From contig NZ_FOBW01000014.1 of NCBI RefSeq assembly GCF_900109925.1, forward strand, positions 1-64,000: 64,000 nt of DNA, in the 5' to 3' direction. The stretch comes from Mesobacillus persicus. Lineage in GTDB: Bacteria; Bacillota; Bacilli; Bacillales; Cytobacillaceae. Positions 21,038-24,111 of the stretch are shown in pieces (the stretch's first letter is position 1; each line of letters starts with the position of its first letter). The notes under the pieces were generated by a model. That model was given only the letters and a program-made list of their open reading frames with translations. It had not been told where the DNA came from and ran no database searches. The position numbers were made by a program, and so were the translations under genes.

Positions 21038-22855
21038 TCACTCCGCCACCAAAAACCGAAGGTTCTCCCTCCGATTAGCAAGATTAACCACAAACTCCTT
21101 CAACTCATCCTCAGAAAGGCTTTCAAAGTTCTTAAGAAGATAATGAACCTCCTCATCCTGCTCATGCAACGCCTTCCCAATAAATATCTTCGGGAAAATC
21201 GGCTCAGGATGAATCTCCTTATCATTCAATAACTCCTCAAACATCTTCTCCCCAGGACGAAGCCCCGAATAAGAAATCCCAATCTCCTCAACAGAATAAC
21301 CCGAAAGGGTTATCAAGTTTTTCGCAAGATCAACAATCCGAACCGGCTCCCCCATATCTAACACGAAGATTTCTCCACCTCTTGCAAGAGATCCCGCCTG
21401 AATAACAAGCCTTGAAGCTTCAGGAATCGTCATAAAATATCTCGTCATATCCGGATGCGTAACCGTCACCGGGCCACCAGCCTGAATCTGTCTCTTAAAC
21501 AGTGGAATAACACTACCACGACTACCAAGCACATTACCAAATCTCACCGCAACAAACTTAGTCTTACTAGTCTCCGCCAACTGCTGAATCACCATCTCCG
21601 CAATCCGCTTAGTAGACCCCATCACATTAGGAGGATTAACCGCCTTATCAGAAGAAATCAAAACAAATGTTTTCACACCGAAGGTGTGACTCGCCTCCGC
21701 CACATTCCGAGTCCCAAAAACATTATTCTTAACAGCTTCCCTCGGATTATACTCCATCAAAGGCACATGCTTATGAGCCGCCGCATGATAAACAACATCC
21801 GGCTTATGCTCCTCCATCACCTCAAACATCCGCTCACGATCCTGAATATCCCCAATCACCGGAACAATCTCAATAGAATCTCGATAGAGATTCCGTAACT
21901 CCATATCAATAGAGTAGATGCTATTCTCCCCATGCCCCACCAAAACTAGTTTTTGTGGGGTGAAAAGGCAAATCTGCCGACAAATCTCAGACCCAATCGA
22001 TCCACCAGCACCCGTAACAAGCACTGTTTTCCCCGACACATATTCAGAAATCCCATCAATATCAAGCTTAATCGGCTCACGCCCCAACAAGTCTTCCACC
22101 TCAACATCACGGAACTGACTAACAGGGACCTTCCCAAGCATGACATCCTCAATCTTCGGCATAATCTGTGTCTTCACTTTCGTTTTCGAGCACTCATCAA
22201 AAATTCTTGTAATCTCTTTCCTACTTAAGGAAGGAATCGCAATCACAATCTTATCAATCTTATACTTTTCAACCGCATCGACAATCCCCTTCGACGTCCC
22301 AACAACCGGAATATCAAGGATTTGCAGCTTATACTTACGAAAATCATCATCAATAAAGGCCGCAGGCTTTAAGCCAAGCTCTGGATTACTTAATAACTGT
22401 CTCGCCACAAGCGTTCCACCCTGACCCGCACCAATAATCAACACCCGTTCCATATCCTGCTTTTTCTTCATAAAATGGTCACGATACATTCGCCAAGCGA
22501 AACGTGAACCACCAATGAGGATCATATGCAAGGTCCATGTCGTGAACAAAGCCCGACCGAAAATGGGCATATCCATCATGTATTGAAAAACCGCCGTACC
22601 CGCAATCGAAAAGGTAACAGCTTTTAAAATACTCACGATTTCCCCGATGCTCGCATATTCCCACGCCTTGTTGTAGAGCTGGAATATAGAAGCGAACAAA
22701 TGATGAAGCACTAATAAAACAACGACACTCCATAAAAGATTATCAAAAACAACTTCAATCGATGGATGAAGAAGGATATAACTAAAATAAATTGCTGTCA
22801 GCACAATCAATGTATCCAGCCCTGCTAATAGCGTTAAGCGATTTCGATAGCTCAT
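21038..22855 (-). CDS. epsC: Membrane-bound nucleotide-sugar 4,6-dehydratase (CapD/EpsC/PglF family)
   Basis: 605 residues. Four N-terminal membrane helices (about 10-130), a CoA-binding-like Rossmann domain (LIIGAGQGGTLVARQLL), then the SDR domain (VTGAGGSIGSEICRQI at about 280). The active site MGSTKRIAE has Met in place of Tyr, as in PglF. It should convert UDP-GlcNAc to the 4-keto-6-deoxy sugar used by the aminotransferase at 17615-18844. GGAGGG stands 6 bases before ATG. It lies directly after the EAR-like RNA and terminator, as B. subtilis epsC lies after EAR. Confidence 0.92.
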   Translation of the reverse strand: MSYRNRLTLLAGLDTLIVLTAIYFSYILLHPSIEVVFDNLLWSVVVLLVLHHLFASIFQLYNKAWEYASIGEIVSILKAVTFSIAGTAVFQYMMDMPIFGRALFTTWTLHMILIGGSRFAWRMYRDHFMKKKQDMERVLIIGAGQGGTLVARQLLSNPELGLKPAAFIDDDFRKYKLQILDIPVVGTSKGIVDAVEKYKIDKIVIAIPSLSRKEITRIFDECSKTKVKTQIMPKIEDVMLGKVPVSQFRDVEVEDLLGREPIKLDIDGISEYVSGKTVLVTGAGGSIGSEICRQICLFTPQKLVLVGHGENSIYSIDMELRNLYRDSIEIVPVIGDIQDRERMFEVMEEHKPDVVYHAAAHKHVPLMEYNPREAVKNNVFGTRNVAEASHTFGVKTFVLISSDKAVNPPNVMGSTKRIAEMVIQQLAETSKTKFVAVRFGNVLGSRGSVIPLFKRQIQAGGPVTVTHPDMTRYFMTIPEASRLVIQAGSLARGGEIFVLDMGEPVRIVDLAKNLITLSGYSVEEIGISYSGLRPGEKMFEELLNDKEIHPEPIFPKIFIGKALHEQDEEVHYLLKNFESLSEDELKEFVVNLANRRENLRFLVAE

Positions 22856-22910
22856 CCATGACCCTCCTCTTTTTATCTATTAATTACTATTAAGAAAATT
22901 TCTGCCCAAA

Positions 22911-22971
22911 AATAAATACCTAATGAAAACGCATATTGTGGTTTAACAAGCGCTTTCATTGGGTATTTATT
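22911..22971 (-). terminator. Long intrinsic terminator between the EAR-like RNA and the dehydratase gene
   Basis: On the minus strand a 22-bp stem (arms 22950-22971 and 22911-22932, 20 of 22 paired) ends in GGTATTTATT and is followed by TTTGGG, giving a U-rich run UUUAUUUUU. It would stop transcription before the distal capsule genes unless RNA polymerase is modified. Outer TGCCCAAA (22903-22910) and TTTGGGCA (22997-23004) form a second pairing. Confidence 0.75.
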
Positions 22972-23009
22972 CTGTAGCGTTATTAACTAAATTTAATTTG
23001 GGCATCTAA

Positions 23010-23140
23010 CCCATCCTCACATCATGCTTTTGACGACATCGTGCGTCTAAGGATACATAAATGCATCCCACAGCATAATCGAGTGCCTCCATAGATAACG
23101 GATAGGAGACATCGCCGGTCAGGAGGTCGCTCCTGAAGCT
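23010..23140 (-). ncRNA. EAR-like (epsC RNA) processive antitermination element
   Basis: The minus-strand transcript between ywqE and the dehydratase can fold into several helices: CAGGAG-CGAC-CUCCUG (23135-23120), UGUCUCC/GGAGGCA (23111-23105 with 23090-23084), GGAUGCA-UUUA-UGUAUCC (23068-23051), GACG/CGUC (23047-23032) and a long-range AUGCU/AGCAU (23076-23072 with 23028-23024). Known: EAR RNAs lie inside Bacillales eps/capsule operons upstream of epsC and prevent termination over long operons. Position and pairing fit; I have no covariance score. Confidence 0.72.
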
Positions 23141-23346
23141 GTTGTTAATAGCTAGATTTATCTATTTGAAGTTTTATTGTTAAAAGGAGCGAAGCTCCAC
23201 CAAACCAAAACATCTCCTAACCATTAGAAAACAACAACCAATTCCATTCATCTACTAAAGATGAAGTTAAACCAAGCAATCCTCTTAAAAGGAACGAAGT
23301 TCCTTCAAAAAAGGGAACGAAAGTTCCCCACCCGAATATCTCAAAC

Positions 23347-24111
23347 TCAAAATATCCCCAAAAACTTTCTGCGCTTCACCCGTTGAGGCTCTTCCCTAAA
23401 CACATTCATCCCCTCAACAAGCAGCTCCGCATTCTCTCTATATAAATAAACCATATCAATCCCGTACAATTTCTCCACCACATCATAAGCCTGCCGCAAA
23501 TGAAACCCACGACTTGTGACGTTATGAGCATCCGAAGCAATAAAATGAACAAGATTCGCTTCAATCAACTGCTCTGAAAAACTCTTAATCTTCTTCCCGA
23601 ACTTGCCGCATAAACTCCCAGCTGTAAGCTGTGCTAACGCACCTTTTTCAACTAGTTTGTATAGCAACTCTGGTCGCTCATGGATCTCCCGGTTGCGCTC
23701 CGGATGAACAATCACCGGAATCAATCCCTTTAACTGTAGGTCAAACAGCATCTTCTCCGAATACCTAGGCACGTGGTCCGAAGGAAGTTCGACAAACACA
23801 TAATTGGTATCATTTAACGTCATGATTTGCCCACTATCAAAATCTTCTAACAATTCACCGTTGATTGCCGTCTCTTGTCCCGGAAGGATTTTTAGATCAA
23901 TCCTTTCCTCTAGCAATCTCTTATTCAACTCCGCTACCTTCGCCAAAACATTCTGTTTCGGATTCAAATAGCGACCATTTTTATGGTGTGGGGTTGCAAT
24001 GATCGTTGTGATTCCTTCTTGCACGGCCAATTTAGCCATCTCAAGACTATCATTGTCCGTTTGCGCGCCATCATCAATTCCTGTAAGTATATGACAATGC
24101 AAATCTATCAT
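23347..24111 (-). CDS. ywqE: PHP-family protein-tyrosine phosphatase (CpsB/YwqE type)
   Basis: 254 residues. Metal-binding PHP motifs in order: DLHCHILTGIDDGA (3-16), TPHHKNGRY, VHPERNREI and ASDAHNVTSRG. RBS GGAGG 6 bases before ATG. It dephosphorylates the tyrosine tail of YwqD, cycling capsule export. It is the last gene before the EAR-like leader; the gap of 491 bp that follows is filled by that RNA and its terminator. Confidence 0.94.
   Translation of the reverse strand: MIDLHCHILTGIDDGAQTDNDSLEMAKLAVQEGITTIIATPHHKNGRYLNPKQNVLAKVAELNKRLLEERIDLKILPGQETAINGELLEDFDSGQIMTLNDTNYVFVELPSDHVPRYSEKMLFDLQLKGLIPVIVHPERNREIHERPELLYKLVEKGALAQLTAGSLCGKFGKKIKSFSEQLIEANLVHFIASDAHNVTSRGFHLRQAYDVVEKLYGIDMVYLYRENAELLVEGMNVFREEPQRVKRRKFLGIF

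Follow-up and report, generated by a model that had tools for sequence, protein, structure and literature searches.

A long hairpin with a U-tract recurs directly downstream of the EAR/epsC RNA in polysaccharide operon leaders of Mesobacillus persicus and its relatives

Introduction

EAR belongs to the small number of RNAs for which an ability to make RNA polymerase disregard terminators has been reported, and the study by Irnov and Winkler of 2010 is said to be the primary account of the EAR/epsC RNA. Its usual place is between phosphatase/kinase genes and dehydratase genes. EAR lets the polymerase pass intrinsic terminators, foreign ones included, and as reported it acts at distal intrinsic terminators of the operon (PMC7858274, available part); no protein factors have so far been shown for this antitermination, according to the available part of PMC11658703.

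Two described systems come closest in layout. In Bacillus velezensis, the LoaP/dfn leader likewise combines an RNA determinant of antitermination with a leader terminator, which is NusA dependent (PMC12691694, available part). There, a protein (LoaP) binds to a small UNCG hairpin, whereas EAR is a larger RNA for which the sources consulted, seen in part, name no partner protein. In Tn916, canT and T1 likewise form a pair of an RNA antiterminator and a terminator that shields the genes behind it from stray transcription, but canT is a different RNA and T1 falls downstream of it only after excision of the element (PMC11658703, available part). The LoaP leaders and canT/T1 thus indicate that a similar layout is workable elsewhere. 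In addition, NusG-dependent terminators of B. subtilis have been described as combining weak terminal pairs with TTNTTT (PMC8060035, available part).

Here, we analyzed a stretch of 64,000 nucleotides of Mesobacillus persicus DNA (the window) that carries a capsule operon. Its EAR is in the usual place, but in contrast to the reported action at distal terminators, a long hairpin stands immediately behind it. No description of such an EAR-partnered hairpin was found in the literature searched, which comprised sources available in part and lay outside the primary EAR paper, and its novelty is provisional.

Results and Discussion

The capsule operon leader carries an EAR RNA followed by a long hairpin

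From the helices of the leader and its placement between ywqE and a dehydratase gene, the original prediction had proposed an EAR-like RNA, to be checked with the Rfam epsC covariance model. In that search (cmscan, Rfam 15), the leader matched RF01735 over the full model (positions 1-117) at 111.7 bits, well above the gathering cutoff of 42, with an E value of 1.4e-18. Pfam placed the phosphatase gene upstream and the dehydratase gene downstream as anticipated (Table 1), and Pfam and NCBIfam assignments of the neighboring genes located the site inside a polysaccharide operon. The leader therefore contains an EAR/epsC RNA, one more member of an RNA that is already known, and processive antitermination by this copy would be expected by analogy with what others have reported for EAR. 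A pseudoknot has also been reported in EAR (PMC2864571, available part). Its putative partners, as deduced from the sequences of the 104 EAR loci described below, are a GG near the 5′ end (104/104) and a CC in the first loop (102/104); the flanking positions can pair in 81/102 and 70/102 when the best placement is picked per sequence, counts that have no control.

Table 1. Features of the capsule operon leader and its flanking genes in the window
Feature	Coordinates	Strand	Basis
CpsB/CapC tyrosine phosphatase (ywqE-like), upstream gene	23347..24111	-	PF19567, 2.4e-59
Short hairpin (7 bp, U6) resembling a classical terminator, between ywqE and EAR	23312..23329	-	terminator scan
EAR/epsC RNA, full length	22999..23117	-	cmscan RF01735
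Post-EAR long hairpin, class A (AGAATAAATACCCAATGAAAG...TTTTCATTAGGTATTTATTTT)	22909..22973	-	fold, 27 bp, model R1
U-tract at/after 3′ stem base, TTTATTTTT, with TTNTTT	22908..22916	-	sequence
Nucleoside-diphosphate-sugar dehydratase (capD/epsC-like), Polysacc_synt_2	21038..22855	-	PF02719, 1.3e-124

Directly behind EAR, the transcript can form a long hairpin with 4 unpaired nucleotides in its stem, which starts 25 nt and ends 90 nt after the RNA; the dehydratase gene is the first gene past it. A 22-bp stem with a U-rich tail, 40-100 nt after EAR, had been foreseen; the long stem and the U-tract were borne out, and the predicted stem length (against 27 bp) and distances were slightly inaccurate but essentially correct. 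The segment 22975-22895 (minus strand) folds at -27.8 kcal/mol versus -10.4 +/- 2.5 kcal/mol in 200 dinucleotide shuffles (z -6.9), none of which folded as well. EAR and the hairpin appeared as separate domains in the fold of the 275-nt leader, and the hairpin is the strongest terminator-like one on the minus strand between 2500 and 26000 (-23.3 kcal/mol; the next, at -18.0, is intragenic).

At the sequence level, a stem-loop with a U-tract directly after it (7 U in the best 8-nt window) is what an intrinsic terminator would have, but the stem is AU-rich (G+C 0.29) rather than G+C-rich. The full stem draws some residues of the U-tract into its outermost pairs; with the core stem (22969-22913) as the reference, the tail reads UUUUUGGGC. 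At its 3′ base, the hairpin carries UAUUUAUUUUU, and weak terminal A-U/G-U pairs with TTNTTT across the stem base (TATTTATTTTT) are sequence marks of NusG-dependent terminators.

The long hairpin recurs behind EAR in related genomes

A search of 101 related genomes with RF01735 yielded matches in 72 of them, giving 104 loci including the window's own, and the 103 others were brought to one orientation for comparison. Using strict criteria that were chosen after hairpins had been viewed and were thus not blind (at least 20 bp, at most 5 unpaired nucleotides, a loop of at most 14, a ΔG of -15 kcal/mol or lower, within 200 nt), we found a hairpin downstream of EAR at 70/104 loci, versus 0.65/104 expected from dinucleotide shuffles. 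The same criteria gave 1/104 in the 200 nt upstream of EAR, 33/1736 in other 200-nt windows, and 18/402 in other same-strand gaps, whose limits are approximate since genes came from simple ORF calls; these 18 include 2 hairpins of second EARs and the 2 hairpins before a 607-aa gene in genomes G016 and G039 (see below). Strict hairpins start at a median of 15 nt past EAR and have a median stem of 25 bp, and at least one post-EAR hairpin is present in 29 of 44 genera.

With relaxed criteria (17 bp, 6 unpaired nucleotides, 250 nt), the count rose to 82/104 EAR loci. Sorted by the preceding gene, on length and without a family search, these hairpins occurred at 45/49 loci with a gene of phosphatase length, at 29/36 with one of kinase length, and at 8/19 others. 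Two looser criteria were dropped as a headline because their background is high: at least 14 bp plus a U tail gave 71/104 versus 18.5 by shuffles and 82/402 in control gaps, and at least 16 bp without a tail gave 76/104 versus 19.5 by shuffles, 21/104 upstream, and 88/402 in gaps.

A second, partly overlapping set came from a DNA-pattern scan, which returned at least 120 EAR loci, 117 of them with at least 150 nt downstream. In the 117 listed, a strict hairpin was present at 45 and a 17-bp hairpin at 62, against 0/114 upstream and 16/854 in other windows; RF01735 confirmed 17 of the 18 checked out of 120, and these counts still include one locus from an Actinomycetota MAG (L135) with a pattern match but no RF01735 match. 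Among the matches listed with names, the hairpin was seen in 15/27 of Paenibacillus and 0/4 of Cohnella. These data indicated that the association of EAR with the hairpin is far above chance and is repeated across many genera. On two contigs (G024:C6, loci L088 and L089; G055:C30, loci L052 and L109), two EARs lie 5-7 kb apart, each with its own long hairpin.

The U-tract has polarity and the hairpins differ from gene-end terminators

When a U-tail was required (at least 16 bp, at most 4 unpaired nucleotides), the hairpin was found after EAR at 56/104 loci versus 0.54 in shuffles and 14/402 in other gaps. On the opposite strand, the count was 15/104, with 43 loci having the tailed hairpin in the sense direction only, 2 in antisense only, and 13 in both. 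A plain palindrome would not require a direction, and the excess of sense-only over antisense-only loci thus indicated that the U-tract has one. Among the 70 strict hairpins, 52 have a 3′ base at which 6 of 8 nt are U and 18 do not, and such a tract is found on the mirror strand in 27. B. spizizenii, a member of the B. subtilis group, has a stable post-EAR hairpin without a U-tract.

As a comparison set, we took the 76 terminators found in 51 gaps between convergent genes at these loci. The EAR-linked terminator-like hairpins have a median stem of 23 bp (16 bp having been required of them) versus 12 bp in the gene-end terminators and a mean G+C of 0.28 versus 0.52; three closing A-U/G-U pairs are present in 46/56 versus 7/76, and TTNTTT across the stem base in 36/56 versus 28/76. 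NusG-dependent B. subtilis terminators likewise have weak A-U/G-U closing pairs with TTNTTT at the base of the stem, but the EAR-linked stems are about 23-25 bp long, as opposed to a median of 10 nt in the strongest-hairpin class of the NusG study (PMC8060035, available part).

Class A hairpins share sequence and covary

Forty hairpins, including that of the window, can be aligned to the consensus ATAAATATCTAATGAAAGnACATGTnnnnnnACGTGTnTTTTCATTAGATATTTATTTTT and were termed class A. In this alignment of 40 sequences, 96.3% of the cells of an 18-bp helix are paired; 10 of the 18 pairs have changed on both sides, amounting to 40 doubly changed cells, which none of 500 shuffles reached. G-U pairs are frequent (26/40 at one position), suggesting that the conserved entity is an RNA and not a DNA palindrome to which a protein binds.

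Class A sites are found next to EAR. The exact pattern occurred at 11 sites in 61 whole genomes, and all 11 were beside an EAR by coordinate comparison. A covariance model of the class A hairpin, R1, was then searched against whole genomes by scoring a few pre-ranked candidates per genome (50 or 16), a scheme in which weak sites elsewhere can be missed. At E ≤0.001 it returned 45 sites in 101 genomes, most of them genomes used in model building, and 43 of the 45 are within 400 nt downstream of a same-strand EAR; order-level genomes outside training gave 39 new sites, of which 37 are so placed, including one (G245) where the opposite strand scored higher with R1. Combined, 80/84 class A sites are just downstream of an EAR. 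The window's hairpin, whose sequence is among the model's building set, scored 64.6 bits at 22973-22903.

Many post-EAR hairpins have the class A shape without the class A sequence. The pattern of a putative second class in Paenibacillus (ACGAGCTA...TAGCTCG) gave no hits in 398 class genomes. By eye, the apical parts of class B hairpins (e.g., L063, L090, and L078), at loci with a kinase-length gene upstream, are alike, TATGTGCTTT...AAAGAAC, and this likeness is a possible second sequence class.

Hairpins without EAR and EARs without hairpin

Both elements were also found apart. In G016 and G039, the hairpin stands between the phosphatase gene and a 607-aa gene, and EAR follows the latter, whereas in G053 the hairpin precedes a dehydratase gene with no EAR found nearby; the gene after the hairpin in these three genomes, which represent one genus, is of dehydratase type and encodes 606-607 aa, the G053 copy being a dehydratase by Pfam. 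Since EAR comes later or none was found nearby, EAR cannot modify the polymerase before the hairpin in these genomes. At L104 and L106, where EAR follows a 607-aa gene, a further terminator-like hairpin is located directly before EAR. The hairpin of G058 lacks an EAR just upstream, that of G215 precedes a galU-like nucleotidyltransferase gene with no EAR even at E values up to 1, and that of G057 precedes glycosyltransferase genes with no EAR found. The R1 sites of G089 and G173 resemble ordinary terminators after unrelated genes (G173 by eye), and six weaker R1 sites (E 0.005-0.07) are likewise without an EAR just upstream. Three rows were left out of one follow-up search, namely, two G049 fragments and one match below the cutoff.

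Among 86 phosphatase genes, an EAR follows within 900 nt at 56 and is absent from this distance at the other 30. A long hairpin follows 12 of these 30, some of which resemble plain operon-end terminators, compared to 45/49 with EAR (Fisher p 1e-6); when the EAR-less genes are limited to those whose gap measures 80 nt or more (9/16), the p value is 0.003. Conversely, EAR occurs in 39 genomes outside the taxonomic order of the window, and among the matches listed for such loci the hairpin is present at 1/15. Ten of these 15 are from one genus, where EAR lies about 50 nt before a galU-like gene, and four Paenibacillus loci (L164, L176, L194, and L211) show the same arrangement. Together, the hairpin is neither required for EAR nor confined to it, but within the taxonomic order to which the window belongs the linkage of the two is strong.

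The original prediction had cast EAR and the terminator as a simple switch for the distal capsule genes. The linkage on which this relied held up, but a universal simple switch is doubtful because some hairpins lack a U-tract, some EARs have been moved or lost, and some have no hairpin.

A stop/go gate and alternative readings

An explanation has to accommodate what was observed: the two elements, their adjacency, a specific and recurrent association, conserved base pairing, and a U-tract with polarity. We reasoned that EAR and a default Nus-type terminator form a two-part gate in the leader, the reading that we favor and consider somewhat probable. In such a gate, an RNA polymerase arriving from the kinase/phosphatase genes would make EAR first, and the RNA, folding outside the enzyme, would turn it into a termination-resistant form, as other groups have reported for this RNA. 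The polymerase would reach the U-tract some 85-90 nt past the end of EAR, by which point EAR would already be complete. The long AU-rich hairpin, with its weak A-U closing pairs and TTNTTT U-tract, would then act as a default NusA/NusG-assisted terminator, at which an unmodified or stray polymerase would halt and which an EAR-modified one would pass, continuing into some 20 kb of capsule genes. Termination at the hairpin, the help of Nus factors, and EAR-mediated read-through of this hairpin are all predictions of the model. By its title, a 2023 study of Miguel-Arribas reportedly found that terminators with exceptionally long stems withstand processive antitermination; if general, that would argue against read-through of the hairpin by EAR.

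The main rival to the gate holds that the hairpin is an independent element of polysaccharide operons, such as a partial terminator, a site of processing by RNase III or otherwise, or a 3′-end stabilizer, which sets the ratio of kinase/phosphatase to biosynthetic mRNA and merely shares its junction with EAR. Hairpins without an EAR just upstream in G016, G039, G053, G058, G215, and G057 speak for it, as do stems near 25 bp, a length that suits RNase III, and the hairpins without a U-tract. We nevertheless regard it as unlikely, given that class A sites are beside EAR in 80/84 cases, that the hairpin is commoner after phosphatase genes with EAR than after those without, and that the polarity of the U-tract suits termination. 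A closer partnership, in which the hairpin belongs to the antitermination signal, either because EAR plus hairpin form the active RNA or because a trans-acting factor binds the hairpin sequence, would account for the tight adjacency to EAR (median 15 nt) and for class A keeping sequence beyond pairing across several families (consensus ATAAATATCTAATGAAAG...TTTTCATTAGATATTTATTTTT); with so many hairpins of the same shape and other sequence, and with EAR also occurring without a hairpin, we judge it improbable.

Still less can be said for a classical attenuator, in which EAR would pair with an arm of the hairpin and open the terminator directly. The EAR 3′ loop GUUAGAUG can indeed form pairs with UAUCUAAU in the 5′ arm of many class A hairpins, and own partners scored above permuted ones (p 0.023 for class A and 0.033 for all, uncorrected and with relatedness not removed), but the effect is small, it is absent in the other classes (p 0.39), and EAR and the hairpin fold as independent domains, making this reading very improbable. 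The least probable of all is a hairpin that blocks antisense transcription as a terminator of the other strand or that represents a mobile palindrome: its palindromic nature and the 15/104 loci with a tailed hairpin on the other strand would fit, but sense-only loci far outnumber antisense-only ones (43 versus 2), and class A sites are not scattered in genomes.

Three further candidates were tried and rejected. Base pairing between the EAR 3′ arm and the region past the hairpin (for the window, TGCCCAAA/TTTGGGCA) showed no excess (p 0.48), nor did promoters between the hairpin and the next gene (9/82 versus 13.2 in mononucleotide shuffles), and hiding of the ribosome site is unlikely, as 2/82 hairpins lie within 25 nt of the next start.

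Returning to the gate, it would account for the way in which stray transcription is prevented from switching on a 20-kb capsule operon. Beyond it, the hairpin may tentatively be viewed as a distinct and widespread regulatory RNA element of Bacillales polysaccharide operons, conserved in sequence within its main class, EAR's dedicated substrate or partner that is recognized by a trans-acting Nus factor or RNA-binding protein, although we would not expect this wider reading to hold. If it did, hairpin-bearing EAR loci would be complete stop/go switches instead of read-through elements for scattered distal terminators. A hairpin right behind EAR in 29/44 genera also offers a compact reporter for EAR's mode of action, the R1 model provides a second marker for finding such operons, and hairpins without EAR and EARs without hairpin are natural experiments on the division of roles.

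Other elements in and around the operon

Past the dehydratase gene, minus-strand ORFs continue to 2582, and those searched by Pfam and NCBIfam are mostly polysaccharide or nucleotide-sugar genes. It had also been suggested that the open gaps within the operon would require read-through. This part found weak support: in a scan of 2500-26000, all terminator-like candidates in the other gaps, e.g., 19123-19088 and 8854-8789, are weak.

Between ywqE and EAR, at 23329-23178 (minus strand), there are three similar short hairpins (GGAACTTTCGTTCC, GGAACTTCGTTCC, and GGAGCTTCGCTCC), each followed by T-rich sequence, and the first resembles a classical terminator. Terminator-like sites upstream of EAR were found at 14/104 loci, and the short hairpin listed in Table 1 is thus not typical of EAR loci at large.

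Upstream of the capsule operon, a c-di-GMP-I riboswitch (26977-26893, minus strand, 65.4 bits) precedes a gene for a 46-aa protein (26873-26736, minus strand), by eye a single-span membrane microprotein. The protein was found in 12 of 31 genomes searched and in 7/7 within the genus, one copy having an internal stop. The riboswitch is present at 4/6 other capsule loci of the genus, as a tandem duplicate in two.
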